Shown one piece after another: positions 14,090 to 26,927 of a stretch of DNA of 46,069 nucleotides. The translations under genes and the position numbers were made by a program. This DNA is from Spartobacteria bacterium (GTDB taxonomy: Bacteria > Verrucomicrobiota > Verrucomicrobiia > Chthoniobacterales > Terrimicrobiaceae): the NCBI GenBank assembly GCA_947499885.1, contig CANMQB010000002.1, forward strand, positions 1-46,069, given 5' to 3'. Under the pieces are notes generated by a model, which saw only the letters and a program-made list of their open reading frames with translations, did no database searches and had not been told where the DNA came from. Each line of letters opens with the position of its first letter. Positions within the stretch are counted from its first letter, which is position 1.

Positions 14090-14246
14090 TGTGGGGCGTG
14101 CGTGGAGAAGGTGGGAGATTGGAAAGAGGCGGCGTGATGGCGGTATTTTGAACACGGTGAACAAAGAGACCTTCTTTGCCAAGTTGCCTAAAAAGAATTT
14201 TGAATTATGTTGGTTAGAGTGGGTGCATTCAGCGCTCAATTTTTTT

Positions 14247-15473
14247 ATGGCAAATGCAATGGTTATAGGAATTGGCGGTGTGGGTTCGGTCATCGGCCAA
14301 AAGCTTCACGAATACGACTGTTTTGACAGGATCATCTTGGCGGATATGGATCCCATTTTTGCAAACCAGTTGGCGGCTAAAACACCCAAGAGCCGCTTTC
14401 TGGTGGTGAAAACAAATGCCATGCACACCGATGCGCTGGCGGCCCTCATGCGCGAACACGAAGTCACGGTGACTTGCAATGCTTGTGTGTGCCAGACGAA
14501 CTACTCCGTACTCGAGGCCTGCCTTCGTGCAGGATCCCACTACATCGACATGGCGGCGGATATCTACTCTGCTCCTGGCGTGAAAAAGCCGGGTAAGAAT
14601 TCCTTCGAAGCCGAAATCGAAAAGTTTAACCAGCCATTCCTCGATCGGGGACTTGCTGGAATCCTGTGTATGGGTATGGATCCCGGGGCGGTGAATGTCT
14701 ACGCCCGCTGGGCGATGGATCGCTTGGATACGGCTTCAAGTATCCGCGTATTGGATGCCGACAACGCGGAAGTGCGAGGCTACCGCTTTGCAGTGCTCTT
14801 TTCGCCGGAGACATTTTTTGAGGAACTCGGAGCGCCGCCTTACTATGTGAAGGATGGGCGTGTTGTGAGCGGAAAGCCGTTGGAGACTGAAATCGAATGG
14901 GTTCGTTTTCCGGAGCCGATTGGACTTCAAAAAACCTATGCTGTCGCGCACGAGGAGGGTGTGAGTTTAGGTATTCATCCCCCCTTTGTGGAGAAAGGTG
15001 TTCGCTACTCGGTTTTCAAATACAGCATTCCGGACAAAGTGGTGAATATTTCCAAGAGCCTTCAACTCCTGAATCTCGATACTTGGAAAAAAATACGAGT
15101 CGATGGCGTAGAGGTTTCTCCAGTACGCGTAGCCAGTGCCCACCTGCCCAAGCCGGCGCAGCTCGGGGCAACGGTGGAGGGCTACTCCTGTGTGGGCACC
15201 GAGGTTCGAGGAACGAAGGACCGCAAACGCGTGGAGTATTTTGTGTATTCGATGGATAGCCACCGCGACACTTACGAGAAATATGGTTACTCACTCACTC
15301 TTGTGCAGACCGGAATCCCCCCCGCCATCACGGCTCGCCTGCTTGCTACTGGAAAAATCACCGAGCGTGGTGTCATGATGCCCGAGGCCCTCGATCCCGA
15401 AGAACTCATGAACTGCTTTTCCCGCGAGGGTCTGCCAACTTTTGTCGAGAAACGGGAAGTCGAGCGCATTTAA
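14247..15473 (+). CDS. Saccharopine dehydrogenase family protein
   Basis: MVIGIGGVGSVIGQKLHEYDCFDRIILADMD (Rossmann fold), CNACVCQTNYSVLEACLRAGSHYIDMA, GMDPGAVNVYARWAMD. Confidence 0.85.
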   Translation: MANAMVIGIGGVGSVIGQKLHEYDCFDRIILADMDPIFANQLAAKTPKSRFLVVKTNAMHTDALAALMREHEVTVTCNACVCQTNYSVLEACLRAGSHYIDMAADIYSAPGVKKPGKNSFEAEIEKFNQPFLDRGLAGILCMGMDPGAVNVYARWAMDRLDTASSIRVLDADNAEVRGYRFAVLFSPETFFEELGAPPYYVKDGRVVSGKPLETEIEWVRFPEPIGLQKTYAVAHEEGVSLGIHPPFVEKGVRYSVFKYSIPDKVVNISKSLQLLNLDTWKKIRVDGVEVSPVRVASAHLPKPAQLGATVEGYSCVGTEVRGTKDRKRVEYFVYSMDSHRDTYEKYGYSLTLVQTGIPPAITARLLATGKITERGVMMPEALDPEELMNCFSREGLPTFVEKREVERI

Positions 15474-15479
15474 AATATC

Positions 15480-16901
15480 ATGAAACCTTTCTACTTGGAC
15501 GGTTGCTGGGTGGAGACTCAGGCCTACGAGGCAATTCACAACCCTTGGTCCGGCGAAATGCTCGCCAATGTGTGCATGGCTGGCTTGCCAGATGTCGAAT
15601 CTGCCGTCGCAAGTGCCCACGAGGCATTTCGGAAAACGCGAAAACTTTCGAGCTCAGTCCGTGCAGCAACTCTGCAAAAAATCGCCCAGATCATCTCCGA
15701 ACGGCGTCAGCAGTTCGTTGACGTCGTCGTTGCCGAGGCAGGAAAACCCGTGACCTTTGCCGAAGCCGAAGTGGACCGCGCCTGCCTGACCTTCGGTTTC
15801 GCCGCCGCGCTCGCCTTGGGCGACGGCGGGCATGGCGTCAATATGGATGCCAGCGCGCCCGGCTTCGGCCACTTCGGCTTGGTGCAACGCTTCCCGTTGG
15901 GCGTGATCCTTGGCATCACGCCCTTCAATTTCCCGCTCAATCTCGTTGCCCACAAAGTGGCTCCCTGCATCGCCACGGGAAATACGATGCTGCTGAAACC
16001 CGCATTAAAGACTCCTCTCTCCGCGCTTCTGCTCGCCGAGGTTCTCCACGAAGCTGGAGTGCCTGCGGGGCAAATCAACGTCCTGCCTTTCTCTCACGAC
16101 CTCATTCCTCCGCTGCTCTCCGATCCGAGAGTGAAAATGCTTAGCTTCACCGGCAGCGTTGATGTTGGCTGGAGACTTAAGGGCCGAGCCGCCAAATTAA
16201 AAACCACCCTCGAACTCGGCGGAAATGCCGCTGTCATCGTCGAACCCGACTCCGATTGGCATGCCGCCATCCCAAAAATCGCAGCGGCTGCTTACGGATT
16301 CGCCGGCCAGTCGTGCATCAGCGTGCAACGAATCCTCGTGCATCGTGAGATTTTTACTCAGTTCCGAGGTGCTCTTGTCTCCTTCATTCAGGAAAAAATC
16401 CAAACTGGGGACCCATCTGAGCGCTCGACCCTTGTCGGCCCGATGATCAATGTTGCCGCCCGCGATAAGGTCGTAGAGTGGGTCGAAGAGGCCACTGCAG
16501 CAGGAGCCTCACTCCTCACTCCCCTGAAAGCCTCAAGCCGCTCTGTCCTCGGCCCCGTACTGCTCGAAAATGTACCCTCCGATTCGCCTGTGCTCTGCGA
16601 AGAAGCCTTTGCCCCGCTCGCTGTGCTCCAGCATTACGGCACCTATGAAGAAGCCCTCGCGATGGTCAATGACTCCCGCTTCGGACTCCAAGCCGGCGTT
16701 TTCACAAGCAATCTTCAAAAAGCCATCTACGCCTTTGAGGAACTCGAAGTCGGAGGCGTCCTGATTAACCAAGTCCCAACCTTCCGCGTGGAAAACATGC
16801 CTTACGGTGGAGTCAAAGAGAGCGGCTCCGGCCGCGAAGGCCTTCGCTACGCGATGGAGGAAATGACCGAGCCCCGCTGCTTGGTGATCAATAAAAACTA
16901 G
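15480..16901 (+). CDS. NAD(P)-dependent aldehyde dehydrogenase
   Basis: GVILGITPFNFPLNLVAHKVAPCIATGNTMLLKPA, TLELGGNAAVIV, AAYGFAGQSCISVQRI (catalytic Cys), MPYGGVKESGSGREGLRYAMEEMTE. Confidence 0.93.
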   Translation: MKPFYLDGCWVETQAYEAIHNPWSGEMLANVCMAGLPDVESAVASAHEAFRKTRKLSSSVRAATLQKIAQIISERRQQFVDVVVAEAGKPVTFAEAEVDRACLTFGFAAALALGDGGHGVNMDASAPGFGHFGLVQRFPLGVILGITPFNFPLNLVAHKVAPCIATGNTMLLKPALKTPLSALLLAEVLHEAGVPAGQINVLPFSHDLIPPLLSDPRVKMLSFTGSVDVGWRLKGRAAKLKTTLELGGNAAVIVEPDSDWHAAIPKIAAAAYGFAGQSCISVQRILVHREIFTQFRGALVSFIQEKIQTGDPSERSTLVGPMINVAARDKVVEWVEEATAAGASLLTPLKASSRSVLGPVLLENVPSDSPVLCEEAFAPLAVLQHYGTYEEALAMVNDSRFGLQAGVFTSNLQKAIYAFEELEVGGVLINQVPTFRVENMPYGGVKESGSGREGLRYAMEEMTEPRCLVINKN

Positions 16902-16959: not shown

Positions 16960-17424
16960 ATGAAAGTGCACCTTCACCATATTCCGGAAGGGGACACGCT
17001 GCACATCGAAGGCGAGGAAACCCCCTCAACCTTGGAACTCGAACAGGGTGGCTTCACCCCAACCACGCCCTTGTGCTACTCGCTCGATGTCGGCCTGAGC
17101 GGTGGAGGGTTATTTGCCATAGGGAGCCTTTCCATTCGGGGAAAAATGCAATGCGTCAACTGTCTCGAAGATTTCGACTGGGATCTGATCGTTGATCCCT
17201 TTTCGATGCAAATTGATTTACCAAAAGCGGAGTTGATTGACTTGACCCCCGAGGTCAGAGAGGATATGCATCTTGCCCTGCCCGCGCACCCCAAGTGCGA
17301 CAGCGGCGGTGAAAAGCAATGCCCCGCGCGTCGCGATGACTCCCGAGTTGCCTCTGGGCAGCCGGTCGGAAAGTCCGTGCCGGCATGGGACGCGCTGGAC
17401 AAGCTAAAACCAAAACTAAAGTAA
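16960..17424 (+). CDS. YceD/DUF177 family protein
   Basis: Located directly before rpmF; central segment [16 protein letters not shown]...PFSMQ matches the YceD CxxC(L) region; C-terminal LPAHPKC. Confidence 0.8.
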
Positions 17425-17428
17425 AATT

Positions 17429-17611
17429 ATGGGAGTTCCCAAACGCAAAACCTCAAAAATGCGCCTTCGCACGCGCAAGGCAGCAAACCGCTGGCAAGCC
17501 CCTAAGCTCGCCAAATGCCCACAATGCGGCGCATCCGTTCCCGGCCATGTCGCCTGCCCGTCCTGCGGATATTATAACAAACGTCAGGTCCTAACAATCG
17601 GCGCTGAGTAG
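17429..17611 (+). CDS. rpmF: 50S ribosomal protein L32
   Basis: [22 protein letters not shown]...[26 protein letters not shown]. Confidence 0.96.
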
Positions 17612-17635: not shown

Positions 17636-18670
17636 ATGAAAATTGCCCTCGACGCCATGGGAGGGGATTATGCCCCGCAAAATCCCATAGCGGGAGCCAT
17701 CCAAGCACTGCGCGATTTTCCCGATGTGGAGATTATTTTCGTCGGTGATGAGTCCAAAGTTCGAGCCGAACTCGCGAAGCACTCCACCGCCGATATCCAG
17801 TCCCGCTACTCCTGCCTCCATGCCTCGCAAGTCGTGGACATGACCGATAGCGGGCTCGATAGCGTTCGGAGAAAAAAAGATTCATCCGTGAGTCGCGCGG
17901 TTGATCTCGTTAAATCGGGCGACGCCGACGCGGTGGTTTCCGCTGGGCATACGGGTGCGCTTGTGGCGGCTTCGACTATTAAGCTTCGTACCTTGCCGGG
18001 CATCGAGCGTGCTGCTCTCGGCGTTCTCATTCCAGCCGATAGCGGGGTTTTTCTCTTGATTGATGGCGGAGCGAATATCGACCCAAGTCCTCGGCACATC
18101 GTGGGATTTGCTGTGATGGGGGCCGTCTATTACAAGGCTATCGTTGGGACACACGAGGCGCGTGTCGGATTGCTCAATATCGGTACCGAACCGGGCAAGG
18201 GCACCGATTTTTGTCGTGAGTGCCATCAGTTGCTCAGCGAGGCGCCTGTGAACTTTGCAGGAAATGTCGAAGGACATGGCATTTTCAAAAAGCCCGTGGA
18301 AGTCGTCGTCTGCGATGGATTCACTGGGAATATTTTCCTGAAAACCGTTGAGGGGCTCGCCAAATCAATGGTCTCCTGGATCAAGAAGGAAATCCAAAAA
18401 AACCCGCTTCGGATGCTTGGTGCTCTCCTCTCTCAAGGGGCATTTAAGGCCGTGAAAAAAAGGACAAGCACCGATGAATATGGCGGCACGCCCTTGCTTG
18501 GAGTCAATGGCATTTGCATTAAGGCACATGGCAACTCCTCCCCTCTCGCTCTGCGCAATGCCATTCGCGCTGCTCGCATGGCAGTCGAACTTCAAATTAA
18601 CAACCGCATCGTCGAGGCGATGAAACCACTTCATGAAAAACTCCCTTCGCGACACCCAGCCTCGGTCTAA
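17636..18670 (+). CDS. plsX: Phosphate acyltransferase PlsX
   Basis: MKIALDAMGGDYAPQNPIAGA, SAGHTGALVAAS, VVCDGFTGNIFLKTVEG, GGTPLLGVNGICIKAHGNS. Confidence 0.96.
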   Translation: MKIALDAMGGDYAPQNPIAGAIQALRDFPDVEIIFVGDESKVRAELAKHSTADIQSRYSCLHASQVVDMTDSGLDSVRRKKDSSVSRAVDLVKSGDADAVVSAGHTGALVAASTIKLRTLPGIERAALGVLIPADSGVFLLIDGGANIDPSPRHIVGFAVMGAVYYKAIVGTHEARVGLLNIGTEPGKGTDFCRECHQLLSEAPVNFAGNVEGHGIFKKPVEVVVCDGFTGNIFLKTVEGLAKSMVSWIKKEIQKNPLRMLGALLSQGAFKAVKKRTSTDEYGGTPLLGVNGICIKAHGNSSPLALRNAIRAARMAVELQINNRIVEAMKPLHEKLPSRHPASV

Positions 18671-19649
18671 CCGCAGCGCCTCTATCATTGGTACCGGCAG
18701 CTACGTGCCAGAGCGTGTCATGACCAATTCGGACCTCGAAGCCATGGTGGAGACAAACCACCAGTGGATCGTAGAACGGACCGGAATCTACGAGCGCCGC
18801 ATCGCGGCGGAAAACGAATTCACCAGCCACATGGCTGCAAAAGCCGCCCAAGCAGCCATGGAAAATGCCGGTGTGACCCCAGAGGAAATCGACATGATCC
18901 TCGTTGCCACAATCACTCCGGACATGTTTTTTCCATCAACCGCTTGTCAGGTCCAGCGACACATCGGGGCGAAAAATGCGACGTGCATGGATGTGAATGC
19001 CGCCTGCTCCGGCTTTCTTTATTGTGTGGAAATCGCCAACCAATTTATCTCAAACCACGCTTGCGAAACTGTGCTTGTCATCGGCGCCGATAAGCTCAGC
19101 AGCATCGTCAATTGGGAGGATCGCAACACCTGCGTGCTCTTCGGGGATGGGGCTGGAGCCGCCATCCTTCGACACCGTCCCGGCTCAAAAGGTGTCGTCA
19201 CAACGTACATGGGCAGTGATGGGAACTATGGAGATATCCTCCACATGCCTGGCGGCGGTTGCGCCAAGCCGATCACCCGCGAAAATGTGGATGACAAACT
19301 CAATACCCTCCAAATGAATGGACGCGAAACATTCAAGCAGGCTGTGACTTCCATGATGCGTGCCGCAAATATCGTCCTCGACCGCTGTGGCCTCACTGCG
19401 CAGGACATCCAATGCGTGATCCCGCATCAAGCAAACATCCGGATTATTGAGGCCATGGCGGACCGCATGGACCTCACGATGGACCGCTTTCACATCAATC
19501 TCGATAAATACGGTAACACCTCTGCTGCGGCAGTTGCCATCGCTCTGGATGAAGCGGCGCGCATCGGTCGATTCCAGAAGGGTGACCCGATTCTCCTCGT
19601 CGTTTTCGGCGGCGGCCTCACCTATGCCAGCTCTGTCATCGAGTGGTAG
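18633..19649 (+). CDS. fabH: 3-oxoacyl-[ACP] synthase III
   Basis: GTGSYVPERVMTNSDL, DVNAACSGFLY (catalytic Cys), VIPHQANIRIIEAMA, NLDKYGNTSAAAVAIALDEA. Confidence 0.96.
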   Translation: MKNSLRDTQPRSNRSASIIGTGSYVPERVMTNSDLEAMVETNHQWIVERTGIYERRIAAENEFTSHMAAKAAQAAMENAGVTPEEIDMILVATITPDMFFPSTACQVQRHIGAKNATCMDVNAACSGFLYCVEIANQFISNHACETVLVIGADKLSSIVNWEDRNTCVLFGDGAGAAILRHRPGSKGVVTTYMGSDGNYGDILHMPGGGCAKPITRENVDDKLNTLQMNGRETFKQAVTSMMRAANIVLDRCGLTAQDIQCVIPHQANIRIIEAMADRMDLTMDRFHINLDKYGNTSAAAVAIALDEAARIGRFQKGDPILLVVFGGGLTYASSVIEW

Positions 19650-20737
19650 CCGGTGATTCCACCCGCGAGGCACTCGACTTTCTTGAGGCTTTTGCCCTCG
19701 AGAAAAAAATCGACTCCGCCACGCATGCCCAACGTGCTCAGGCTGTGCGTGAGGAACTCGCCTCCAGAGGAAGCTGGACGCCGACATTTGATGAACTCGA
19801 GCATGGTGCCCGCATGGCTTGGAGAAACAATGCGCGCTGCATCGGTCGTCTGTTCTGGCCCTCGCTCAAAGTCCGTGACCTGCGGCATATTTCCGAGCCC
19901 GCCGAGGTATATCGAGCCCTTCTCGAGCACCTCAATACGGCGACAAACGCGGGAAAAATTCAGCCGTTCCTTACGGTTTTTGCTCCAGCGACGAGCGAGG
20001 GTTCCGCCGTGAGAATCTGGAATCACCAGCTCCTCAGCTACGCCGGCTATGAGCAGCCCGATGGTACTATCCTCGGTGATCCCAAAAATGTGCCATTCAC
20101 TCGCCAGGCTCTTGCCCTAGGCTGGAGAGGTGAGGGGACCCGTTTTGATCTCCTCCCTCTCATCATTCAAAAACGCGGTTGCGAGCCTGTCCTTTTTCCA
20201 CCCCCACACACTCAAGCCTTGGAAGTTTTTCTGAAGCACCCGAGCCTGCCTTGGTTCCCTGATTTAGGCTTGAAATGGTACGCCGTTCCCATTCTTTCGG
20301 ATATGCGCCTGCGTCTCGGAGGACTCGATTTTCCGGCCGCACCATTCAATGGATGGTATATGGGAACCGAAATCGGCTCGCGGGATTTGGGTGACGAAGC
20401 CCGCTACGATATGCTTCCGGCCATCGCGGAAAAAATGGGCATTGATTGTGGGATGGATTCTCTCTGGAAAGACCGGGCGCTCGTCGAACTCAATGCGGCG
20501 GTCATTTTTTCCTTTGAGGAGGCCGGTGTGCGTATTGTGGATCACCACCGCGCGTCCTCCGAATTTATGGAATTTGCCGCGCGCGAAATGAAGGCCGGTC
20601 GTGCCGTTTCTGCCGAGTGGAGTTGGATCGTTCCGCCGATGTCTGGGTCCGCCACACCAGTTTTCCATAAACTCTGGGAGAACACTTTGCAGCTCCCTGA
20701 CTACCTACCCCAACCCCACGCCTGGGATTGTTTTTGA
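19643..20737 (+). CDS. nos: Nitric oxide synthase oxygenase (bacterial NOS)
   Basis: GARMAWRNNARCIGRLFW (heme-thiolate Cys motif), PFNGWYMGTEIGSRDLGDEARYDMLPAIAEKMGID (substrate Glu region), SLWKDRALVELNAAVIFSF, VDHHRASSEFMEF, EWSWIVPPMSGSATPVFH. GTG start overlapping fabH; no reductase domain. Confidence 0.95.
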   Translation: MVAGDSTREALDFLEAFALEKKIDSATHAQRAQAVREELASRGSWTPTFDELEHGARMAWRNNARCIGRLFWPSLKVRDLRHISEPAEVYRALLEHLNTATNAGKIQPFLTVFAPATSEGSAVRIWNHQLLSYAGYEQPDGTILGDPKNVPFTRQALALGWRGEGTRFDLLPLIIQKRGCEPVLFPPPHTQALEVFLKHPSLPWFPDLGLKWYAVPILSDMRLRLGGLDFPAAPFNGWYMGTEIGSRDLGDEARYDMLPAIAEKMGIDCGMDSLWKDRALVELNAAVIFSFEEAGVRIVDHHRASSEFMEFAAREMKAGRAVSAEWSWIVPPMSGSATPVFHKLWENTLQLPDYLPQPHAWDCF

Positions 20738-23206: not shown

Positions 23207-24982
23207 TTGAAAATGTCAGCCACTACCATCGACGCACCCGTTCAAGAGTCCGCTCCCCACGCTCATCCCGAGCATCCAACCAGCTTTTTCCATAAATATC
23301 TCTGGACCTATGATCACAAGATGATCGGTCTGCAGTATCTCTGGACCGCCCTTGCTTTCCTCTTTCTCGGTGGCGCTCTTGCTCTGGGAGTTCGCTGGCA
23401 GCTCGGCTTTCCCGGTGCGGAAATCCCTCTCATCGGGAGGCTCCTTCCAGCAACCGTTGCCGTTGACGGCTCTATCATTCCCGGTGGTTACAACATGCTC
23501 GTAACGATGCATGCGACCATAATGGTCTTCTTTGTCGTGATGCCTCTTCTGATCGGAGCCTTCGGCAATTATCTGATCCCACTTCAAATTGGCGCGGGTG
23601 ACATGGCGTTCCCGCTTTTGAACGAGCTCAGTTATTGGCTCTATGTCCTGTCTGGAGTTATTCTCCTTGGGGCCTTCTTCGCGCCAGGTGGGGCGCCGGG
23701 AACTGGCTGGACGGCCTACGCGCCGCTCAGTTCTGTGGCTGCCTACAATGGAACACCCATCGGTCAAAGTCTTTGGGGAGCAGCTATATTCATAAACGGT
23801 CTCTCCTCCATCGCTGGCGCTACGAACTATATCACGACCGTCGTAAACATGCGCGCTCCTGGCATGACCATGTTCCGCATGCCATTGCCAGTTTGGTCGC
23901 TTTTCATCACGGCAATTCTGCTTCTCTTGGCGGTGCCTGTCCTCTCCGCCGCTGCCGCCATGCTCTTCGCAGATCTCAACATGGGAACCAGCTTTTTCTC
24001 GCCCCAAGGTGGAGGTCAACCTCTTCTCTGGCAGCATCTCTTTTGGTTCTTTGGTCACCCTGAAGTTTACATCATGATCTTGCCGGCTATGGGCCTGACT
24101 TCGGAAATTCTAGCTGTCTTCTCCCGTAAGCCGATTTTTGGTTATAAGGCGATGGTTTACGCGATGATTGCTATCGGGTTTCTTGGCTTCGTCGTGTGGG
24201 GGCACCACATGTTTGTGAGCGGCATGAATCTGACTCTCAGCGCGGCCTTCTCGGTTTCCACAATGGTCATCGCCGTGCCATCGGCTATCAAAACCTTCAA
24301 TTGGATGGGTACGATCTGGCGGGGTTCGATAGAATTTACCACGGCCATGTGCTTTGCCTTGGCGTTCGTATCAATGTTCGTCATTGGAGGCCTCAGTGGT
24401 ATCTTCATGGCTTCCACGCCTGTCGATCTGTTCGTTCACCACACTTATTTCATCGTGGCGCATTTCCATTACGTCCTTTTTGGAGGGAGTATCTTTGCGG
24501 TCTTTGGTGCTATTTACTTCTATTTCCCGAAAATGTTTGGTCGCATGCTCAACGAGGCGCTCGGCAAATGGCATTTCTTCCTGACGCTCATTTTCTTTAA
24601 CCTCACATTCTTTCCCATGCACAATCTGGGTCTCGGTGGGATGATGCGCCGCATTGCGGATCCAACTGTCTATGAGCACCTGCGGCAGCTTCAGCCGCTC
24701 AACCAGCTCTGCACAATTGGTGCGATCGGACTCGGCTTCACCACATTCCTCTTCTTGTGGAATGTCGTTATGAGCCTGCGCAATGGGAAAAAAGCTCCGA
24801 ACAACCCTTGGAACGCTAACACTCTCGAGTGGACCGTCCCATCGCCTCCTGGGCATGGCAATTTTGACAAAACGCCTGTCGTTTACCACGGACCCTACGA
24901 ATACAGCGTCCCTGGTCTTGACAAGGATTACCTGCCCCAGACCGAGCGTGCGCCCGAAGGCGCTCGCCTTGAGTCTCACTAA
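23207..24982 (+). CDS. Cytochrome c oxidase subunit I (A1-type heme-copper oxidase)
   Basis: WTYDHKMIGLQYLWTALAFL, MHATIMVFFVVMPLLIGAFGNYLIP, FWFFGHPEVYIMILPAMG, VWGHHMFVSGM, HHTYFIVAHFHYVLFGGS. Confidence 0.96.
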   Translation: MKMSATTIDAPVQESAPHAHPEHPTSFFHKYLWTYDHKMIGLQYLWTALAFLFLGGALALGVRWQLGFPGAEIPLIGRLLPATVAVDGSIIPGGYNMLVTMHATIMVFFVVMPLLIGAFGNYLIPLQIGAGDMAFPLLNELSYWLYVLSGVILLGAFFAPGGAPGTGWTAYAPLSSVAAYNGTPIGQSLWGAAIFINGLSSIAGATNYITTVVNMRAPGMTMFRMPLPVWSLFITAILLLLAVPVLSAAAAMLFADLNMGTSFFSPQGGGQPLLWQHLFWFFGHPEVYIMILPAMGLTSEILAVFSRKPIFGYKAMVYAMIAIGFLGFVVWGHHMFVSGMNLTLSAAFSVSTMVIAVPSAIKTFNWMGTIWRGSIEFTTAMCFALAFVSMFVIGGLSGIFMASTPVDLFVHHTYFIVAHFHYVLFGGSIFAVFGAIYFYFPKMFGRMLNEALGKWHFFLTLIFFNLTFFPMHNLGLGGMMRRIADPTVYEHLRQLQPLNQLCTIGAIGLGFTTFLFLWNVVMSLRNGKKAPNNPWNANTLEWTVPSPPGHGNFDKTPVVYHGPYEYSVPGLDKDYLPQTERAPEGARLESH

Positions 24983-24993
24983 TTTGCGAGTTC

Positions 24994-26040
24994 ATGGATG
25001 GAGCAAACACATCCCTCAGTCTGCGTCGGCTTGCCATTCACGCTTGGGCTTGCATCACGCTGGCCACAACATTTCTTCTTCTTTGTAGCGGTGGGATCGT
25101 GACCTCCAAAGGTGTCGGCATGTCTGTGCCTGACTGGCCGACCACCTATGGCTACAATATGTTCCTCTTTCCCCTCTCGGGCTGGGTCGGTGGGGTTTTT
25201 TACGAACACAGCCACAGGCTCATTGCGTCGGGAGTCGGGCTCATGACAATGATCCTCGCCGTAGGGCTTCTGGTTGTGGAGCCGCGTCGCTGGGTCAGAA
25301 ATCTTGGCATCATTGCTTTCATCGTCGTCTGTATTCAGGGTTTGTTGGGGGGGCTCCGCGTTTCGCTTTTCAAAGATGAAATCGGAATCTTCCATGCCAC
25401 GCTGGCGCAATCATTTTTCTGCTTGCTGGGGATTCTAACACTGGCGACAAGCCCGAGTTTCTTACGCCGAGCGTGGGATGTTTTCTTGCCCGATCCCGTC
25501 TTAAAAAATCTTGTTGTCGCAGCCACCGGTCTCATCTTTTTACAACTCGGCCTCGGCGCGACGATGCGGCATGAGCATGCAGGCTTGGCGATTCCTGACT
25601 TCCCTCTGGCCTATGGAAAAATCCTGCCTGACACCTCGGCGGCCTCAATCGCCTCGATCAATTTGGCTCGTGTTGCCGATAATAAAATGCCCACCACCGC
25701 AGCATACGTCTGGATTCAGATGGCTCACCGAGGCGTGGCCGTTGCCATCCTGCTTGCTGTTGTCGCTGCGGCATGGCGCGCCTTCACTAATCCCATCGCT
25801 CGCTCGGCGCGTTTGTGGGCAGGCGTGTGGCTCCTGATGATTTTCGCTCAGGTGCTCTTGGGTGCTTGGACAATCTGGTCCGATAAAGCCGCCGATGTTG
25901 CAACCGCCCACATGGCGCTCGGAGCCTTATCTGTCATCGTGGGGGTTGTTTTCTCTTTTCGTCTCTGGCGCGGAGCGGACGCCGGTCGCTTTGTTATTCC
26001 CGACCAACCCCCAGTTTTGAACTTTGCCCGTATCGCATGA
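24994..26040 (+). CDS. ctaA: Heme A synthase (CtaA/Cox15 family)
   Basis: SGGIVTSKGVGMSVPDWPTTYG, YEHSHRLIASGVG, LQLGLGATMRHEHAGLAIPDFPLAYG, WIQMAHRGVA. Confidence 0.93.
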   Translation: MDGANTSLSLRRLAIHAWACITLATTFLLLCSGGIVTSKGVGMSVPDWPTTYGYNMFLFPLSGWVGGVFYEHSHRLIASGVGLMTMILAVGLLVVEPRRWVRNLGIIAFIVVCIQGLLGGLRVSLFKDEIGIFHATLAQSFFCLLGILTLATSPSFLRRAWDVFLPDPVLKNLVVAATGLIFLQLGLGATMRHEHAGLAIPDFPLAYGKILPDTSAASIASINLARVADNKMPTTAAYVWIQMAHRGVAVAILLAVVAAAWRAFTNPIARSARLWAGVWLLMIFAQVLLGAWTIWSDKAADVATAHMALGALSVIVGVVFSFRLWRGADAGRFVIPDQPPVLNFARIA

Positions 26041-26927
26041 AGAGTGCCGCTGTCCTTACGCGGGAACGAAAAAACGCCTTGCTCGATGATGTCCTTGAAC
26101 TGGTAAAGGCCCGTCTTTCTTTTTTGGTTCTCATCACCACGCTCGTTGGATTCCTGCTCGGTTGGCAAGGGCCCTTTGACTGGGTTTTGCTTCTCGCCAC
26201 GCTGCTTGGCACGGCCCTCTCCGCAGCGGGAGCCGCCGCTCTTAATCAATGGTGGGAACGCGATATTGACAGCCGCATGAAGCGCACGCGGGACCGTCCG
26301 CTACCCGCTCGCCGCATGCAACCGCAAGACGCTCTCCTCTTTGGCTTGTTTTTTTCTCTGAGCGGTATTGCCATCCTCGCCCTTTTTGCCAATCCTCGCG
26401 CCGCCTTTCTCGCTTTCGCCACCATTGCGATCTACATCCTGGTTTACACACCTATGAAGCGCATCAGCTCGCTGAACACGCTTGTAGGCGCCATACCAGG
26501 AGCCCTGCCGCCGCTGATTGGTTGGGTTGCCGCCCGAGGCCAATATGATACCGAAGGGTGCCTCCTCTTCGCCACTCTCTGGTTTTGGCAGATGCCACAT
26601 TTCCTAGCCATTGCTTGGATGTATAAAGACGACTATGCCGATGGAGGTTTTGTGATGCTCACCGCCAACGACCCCCAGGGCACTGTCACCTCACGCCAAG
26701 CTCTTCTGTATTCCCTCTTTCTTATTCCCGTGACTCTCATGCCATCAATTCTGGGATTCAATTCTCCCATTTACTTTTTTGGCGCTCTTGCTCTCGGCAT
26801 GGCTTTTACGGCTTTTGCGCTGCGATTCATGATGCAGCGTAGTCGCGTAGCTGCGCGGAATCTTTTCTTTTCCTCCATCATCTACCTGCCGCTTCTTCTC
26901 GGCCTTCTTGTCGCCACGCATAGATGA
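26037..26927 (+). CDS. ctaB: Protoheme IX farnesyltransferase
   Basis: LVKARLSFLVLITTLVGFLLG, AALNQWWERDIDSRMKRTRDRPLPARRM, GAIPGALPPLIGWVAARG. Confidence 0.95.
   Translation: MKSAAVLTRERKNALLDDVLELVKARLSFLVLITTLVGFLLGWQGPFDWVLLLATLLGTALSAAGAAALNQWWERDIDSRMKRTRDRPLPARRMQPQDALLFGLFFSLSGIAILALFANPRAAFLAFATIAIYILVYTPMKRISSLNTLVGAIPGALPPLIGWVAARGQYDTEGCLLFATLWFWQMPHFLAIAWMYKDDYADGGFVMLTANDPQGTVTSRQALLYSLFLIPVTLMPSILGFNSPIYFFGALALGMAFTAFALRFMMQRSRVAARNLFFSSIIYLPLLLGLLVATHR

Follow-up and report, generated by a model that had tools for sequence, protein, structure and literature searches.

The locus described here raises the question of whether a nitric oxide synthase (NOS) gene in an uncultured bacterium of the Verrucomicrobiota specifies a functional enzyme and, if so, how it would be supplied with electrons and what purpose its product might serve. 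The gene lies within a 46,069 nt stretch of DNA (the window; contig CANMQB010000002.1, positions 1 to 46,069) from a Spartobacteria metagenome-assembled genome (MAG) that is 86.7% complete. The original prediction, made from the sequence of the window, was of a complete oxygenase-only NOS in a probable member of the PVC group, and the assignment of the host was correct, Spartobacteria being a class of the Verrucomicrobiota, within that group.

Identity of the NOS gene

The gene and the codons of its key residues are as follows.

19643 to 20737, forward strand: NOS (oxygenase-only), 364 aa (PF02898, 487 bits; PDB homologues; dN/dS)
19838 to 19840, forward strand: codon of Cys66, proximal heme thiolate, motif WRNNARC (invariant in 32/32 verrucomicrobial and 74/74 other sequences)
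20294 to 20296, forward strand: codon of Leu218, NO-release gate position (ungapped alignment of PILSDM with PIISDM of 2flq; residue table)
20369 to 20371, forward strand: codon of Glu243, substrate arginine-binding Glu, FNGWYMGTEI (invariant in 32/32 and 74/74)
20624 to 20626, forward strand: codon of Trp328, pterin-stacking Trp, EWSWIVPP dimer region (invariant in 32/32 and 74/74)

The open reading frame was found at exactly the predicted coordinates, with a GTG start at 19643 and a stop codon ending at 20737, and it contains all of the motifs that had been quoted in its support. The NO_synthase profile (PF02898), a search proposed along with the prediction, matched residues 8-361 to model positions 7-361 of 362 with a score of 487.6 bits (E ~2e-146 (2.7e-146); cut-off 22.7 bits), which excludes chance as the source of the match, and this was the single NO_synthase match in the genome. 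None of the NCBIfam models matched the protein, but its identity is not in doubt. When compared to the PDB by phmmer, the top match was Geobacillus NOS (2flq, 2.8e-116), followed by B. subtilis NOS and then by mammalian NOS oxygenase domains. There is one Pfam domain only, with no fused reductase, so the protein has the oxygenase-only (type I bNOS) layout and not that of the reductase-fused NOS. Values of dN/dS were 0.08-0.11 against the orthologue in genome G400, and 0.05-0.07 against that in G399, a pair close to synonymous saturation; at 0.05-0.11, they indicate that the gene is under purifying selection.

The alignment proposed as a second check, covering 106 NOS sequences (32 verrucomicrobial and 74 other), showed that the heme Cys, the substrate Glu and the pterin Trp are all retained. 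None of the outcomes named beforehand as counting against the prediction, namely a missing heme Cys or substrate Glu or the failure of the family profile to match, was therefore observed. Trp60, six residues ahead of Cys66 (W-x5-C), is also invariant across the 106. The roles of these residues are taken from solved NOS homologues, while the residues themselves were read in the sequence. With a full-length profile match, a single domain and intact key residues, the prediction of a complete oxygenase-only NOS holds: judged by its sequence, the gene is a genuine one and otherwise ordinary. Both the family and its occurrence among Verrucomicrobiota were known before; what this analysis adds is a Leu at the NO-release gate, a flavodoxin gap, a linkage to fabH and, elsewhere in the phylum, NOS fused to reductases.

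The protein resembles the NOS of B. subtilis (BsNOS, 1m7v) and Geobacillus (gsNOS, 2flq) in domain content, length, heme Cys, substrate Glu, pterin Trp and the lack of a fused reductase. It differs from BsNOS in having Gly335-Ser336 in place of Pro332-Ala333, a state that is mammal-like. The oxygenase domain of animal NOS (human eNOS, 3eah) shares the catalytic residues and the SGS-TPVFH stretch after the pterin Trp, whereas the N-terminal zinc/hook segment, calmodulin site and reductase of eNOS are missing from the window protein. Reductase-fused bacterial NOS (Sorangium-type, and syNOS of Synechococcus PCC 7335) possess a homologous oxygenase domain, but reductase, globin and C2 domains are all absent from the window protein.

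The most satisfactory explanation, and very probably the right one, is a functional, homodimeric, oxygenase-only bacterial NOS that works by the mechanism proposed here as a whole. L-arginine would be converted via N-hydroxyarginine to citrulline and NO, with Cys66 ligating the heme, Glu243 binding the guanidinium group of the substrate, and Trp328 stacking against a pterin or folate in its reduced form. The weakest step is the biological role, which may be the provision of low-level NO for stress protection or for the tuning of respiration, as has been proposed for other bacterial NOS.

Gene neighbourhood and linkage to fabH

The NOS gene is the last in a string of genes on one strand, yceD-rpmF-plsX-fabH-NOS, the others being:

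16960 to 17424, forward strand: yceD (DUF177) (PF02620, 34.4 bits, just above cut-off; synteny in the genus)
17429 to 17611, forward strand: rpmF, ribosomal protein L32 (PF01783, E 4.6e-20)
17636 to 18670, forward strand: plsX, phosphate acyltransferase (TIGR00182, 340 bits; synteny)
18633 to 19649, forward strand: fabH, beta-ketoacyl-ACP synthase III (TIGR00747, 404.5 bits; synteny)

The GTG start of NOS overlaps the end of fabH by 7 nt, and in each of the 13 NOS-bearing genomes of the host genus NOS is immediately preceded by fabH in the same orientation, with a spacing that ranges from an overlap to about 100 nt ahead of the first NOS residue in the alignment. In sister genera, yceD, plsX and fabH are present without NOS. 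Downstream, NOS is followed by ctp and tsaD in the window and its two closest relatives alone, while most other genomes of the genus have a conserved convergent gene at this place. As the downstream genes vary between subclades, the stable unit is fabH-NOS. The spacing of the genes suggests an operon in which fabH and NOS are co-transcribed and, since NOS is last in the string, it is probably co-expressed with the genes for membrane-lipid initiation. A functional tie to fatty-acid initiation is speculation. The fixed site behind fabH provides a first, weak pointer to the purpose of NO in these uncultured bacteria.

Two other arrangements were considered and rejected. An apparent FabH-NOS fusion in genome G402 (a 689-aa open frame) arises from the NOS frame being merely open through fabH, which is read in a different frame, and a dedicated reductase beside NOS was discarded because the conserved neighbourhood contains none and the downstream genes differ between subclades.

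Elsewhere in the window, a protein of the saccharopine-dehydrogenase fold (14232-16901), resembling carboxynorspermidine synthase at a score well below the cut-off, adjoins an aldehyde dehydrogenase, and the two are possibly a polyamine-type pair. A few genes downstream of NOS, at 23207-26927, are genes for cytochrome c oxidase subunit I, a CtaA-like protein and a UbiA-family (CtaB-like) protein, an association that was observed for the window and its two closest relatives alone.

The NO-release gate

Bacterial NOS have been described as carrying Ile at the gate position where animal enzymes have Val, which slows the release of NO (PMC6104048, PMC9500659). The window protein departs from this description, with Leu218 (PILSDM) at the site occupied by Ile in gsNOS (PIISDM) and BsNOS, and by Val in human eNOS. 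The Ile gate is a descriptive generalisation and not a defining trait of bacterial NOS.

Leu was found at the gate in 19/19 members of one verrucomicrobial clade (SH-aLRT 100), which includes the host genus as well as Opitutales, Puniceicoccaceae, Verrucomicrobiales and Akkermansiaceae MAGs, and additionally in two scattered verrucomicrobial sequences outside it. The tree was built with the gate column included, and that column alone is unable to create a branch with an SH-aLRT of 100. The remaining verrucomicrobial NOS fall in other clades and mostly have an Ile or Val gate. None of the 74 bacterial NOS from outside the phylum had Leu, all carrying Ile or Val, but these were the best-scoring matches of one search and mostly Bacillota, so the rarity of Leu beyond Verrucomicrobiota is not proven. 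Val was present in 11 of 73 outside-phylum sequences, mostly from Bacillota, as well as in a Sericytochromatia fusion. Val gates in several Bacillota NOS (L026, L028, L029, L039, L055, L071, L080, L081, L085, L098 and others) and in some from Verrucomicrobiota run contrary to the published statement that all bacterial enzymes have Ile.

Leu218 would be expected to favour slow release of NO, as does Ile relative to Val, and the clade is a natural setting in which to test the Val/Ile rule. An alternative, which appears improbable, is that this is a NOS-fold protein that mainly does not release NO, with the bulky Leu218 trapping it so that most of it is turned into nitrate, in the manner of an NO dioxygenase, or is used in the directed nitration or nitrosylation of a partner, for example the neighbouring lipid enzyme. 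The uniformity of the Leu gate within the clade and its absence from the bacterial NOS sampled outside the phylum would suit such a protein, as would the greater NADPH-dependent NO dioxygenase activity of V346I iNOS (summarised in PMC6104048), yet every NOS catalytic residue has been retained, and Ile-gated bacterial NOS still produce NO. Similarly, the fixed linkage to fabH might indicate a lipid enzyme as partner but may reflect merely a convenient promoter, and neither a biosynthetic cluster nor a target for nitration can be seen beside the gene. An NO-producing enzyme, with slow release, is the preferred reading.

Electron donor

The in vivo electron donors of bacterial NOS are a long-open question, and these enzymes have been described as functioning without a dedicated redox partner. 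BsNOS is served by flavodoxins, but the host genus shows no member of the Flavodoxin_1 family: none was detected in its 16 genomes, some of which are 99-100% complete, while the same search was positive in 5 of 10 sister-genus genomes and 10 of 14 controls. Searches of the host's own genome for Flavodoxin_5 and for plant-type Fer2 ferredoxins were also negative. For flavodoxins, the searches covered Flavodoxin_1 across the genus and Flavodoxin_5 in the own genome; for ferredoxin reductases (FNR), they covered the FAD_binding_1 and NAD_binding_1 type. The original prediction had noted the lack of a reductase or flavodoxin nearby, and this extends further, as the whole genome gives no Flavodoxin_1 match and its one NAD_binding_1 match is on a contig other than that of NOS. 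Since Flavodoxin_1 was not detected in the 16 genomes, the B. subtilis flavodoxin route seems to be unavailable both to this bacterium and to its genus; a flavodoxin donor is, in any case, no defining trait of bacterial NOS.

After the Flavodoxin_1, Fer2 and Fer4 searches, the possibility of there being no one-electron carrier at all was considered, but was abandoned when the Fer4_13 profile revealed a small ferredoxin of 76 aa with a single [4Fe-4S] motif (CxxCxxC...CP), encoded on the minus strand of L231 in an ORF within 893-1291. Matches to Fer4_13 occur in 13/16 genomes of the genus. The host genome also encodes one reductase (L141, 739-1929) with FAD_binding_1 and NAD_binding_1 domains and without a flavodoxin domain, corresponding to the FNR half of CysJ/CYPOR-type proteins, and FAD_binding_1 was present in 15/16 genomes of the genus. 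Only one NAD_binding_1 protein exists in the host genome, so an Hmp-type flavohaemoglobin is unlikely there. In a genus without a detectable Flavodoxin_1 protein, a ferredoxin route is proposed, and the most likely donor route would run from NADPH to the FAD-type reductase (FNR), then to the single-cluster [4Fe-4S] ferredoxin, and so to the NOS heme. Neither component is linked to the NOS gene and, because sister genera without NOS carry both, they are not dedicated to it. For the same reason, a dedicated FNR was rejected as a candidate, the FAD_binding_1 module being found family-wide, including in genera without NOS. With NOS maintained by selection in a genus that shows no Flavodoxin_1 protein, the candidate donors are cut to one ferredoxin and a few reductases.

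A broader proposal can be put forward tentatively, and is on balance doubtful: that the verrucomicrobial clade combines a third natural gate state (Leu) with a ferredoxin donor in a flavodoxin-less lineage and with synthesis tied to fatty-acid initiation via fabH. If true, it would represent a distinct functional variant of NOS, in which NO is released slowly, or oxidised internally, in step with membrane synthesis.

Distribution and origin

NOS was detected in 13 of the 16 genomes of the host genus and in none of 10 genomes from four sister genera. The three negative genomes within the genus, with a completeness of 64-82%, gave no match to fabH either, so that the locus is probably just missing from these assemblies. 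NOS was matched in about 5% of the genomes sampled from the phylum (18 of 388), and in 30/235 genomes of a sample centred on family f10. Verrucomicrobiota is not a first for NOS, since a 2017 study of reservoir and freshwater Verrucomicrobia MAGs reported the gene in Opitutae-Tous-C4FEB and other MAGs, with no adjoining toxin genes (PMC5673642). Opitutae-Tous-C4FEB belongs to another class of the same phylum, and the text of that study contains no sequence analysis of its NOS (PMC5673642).

That the gene was horizontally acquired, or is a MAG contaminant, without lasting function is highly improbable, for while its distribution in the phylum is patchy, four sister genera lack it, and the tree contains several separate verrucomicrobial NOS clades, NOS occurs at a fixed place and among native contig neighbours in 13/13 locus-bearing genomes of the genus and is under purifying selection, so that synteny and dN/dS largely refute this explanation. 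The gene may well have been acquired before the genus diversified, which would not imply non-function.

Two irregular NOS copies were noticed. One member of the genus carries a second, truncated NOS remnant (L123, G401:C4, 4857-5465) that keeps only profile positions 189-272, without the heme Cys part, and probably represents the decayed copy of a NOS of another lineage. In family f10, one NOS (L014, G358:C66:481-1482) has an internal in-frame TAG, and may be a pseudogene or an assembly error.

Reductase-fused NOS elsewhere in the phylum

A 2022 review recognised only two types of bacterial NOS, oxygenase-only and globin-reductase (PMC9500659). Reductase-fused NOS were observed in Verrucomicrobiota, in genomes of family f10 (L130, L203, L205, L206 and L222), and they fall in a different clade from the window NOS. 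In the long frames of L130, L203 and L206 the order of domains is cNMP-binding, BFD-like [2Fe-2S], FAD_binding_6 and then the NOS oxygenase, an arrangement similar to that of the self-sufficient NOS of Sorangium. In the tree, a complete Sericytochromatia MAG protein of 1093 aa with the same domain order (L073) clusters with L203 and L206 (SH-aLRT 99).
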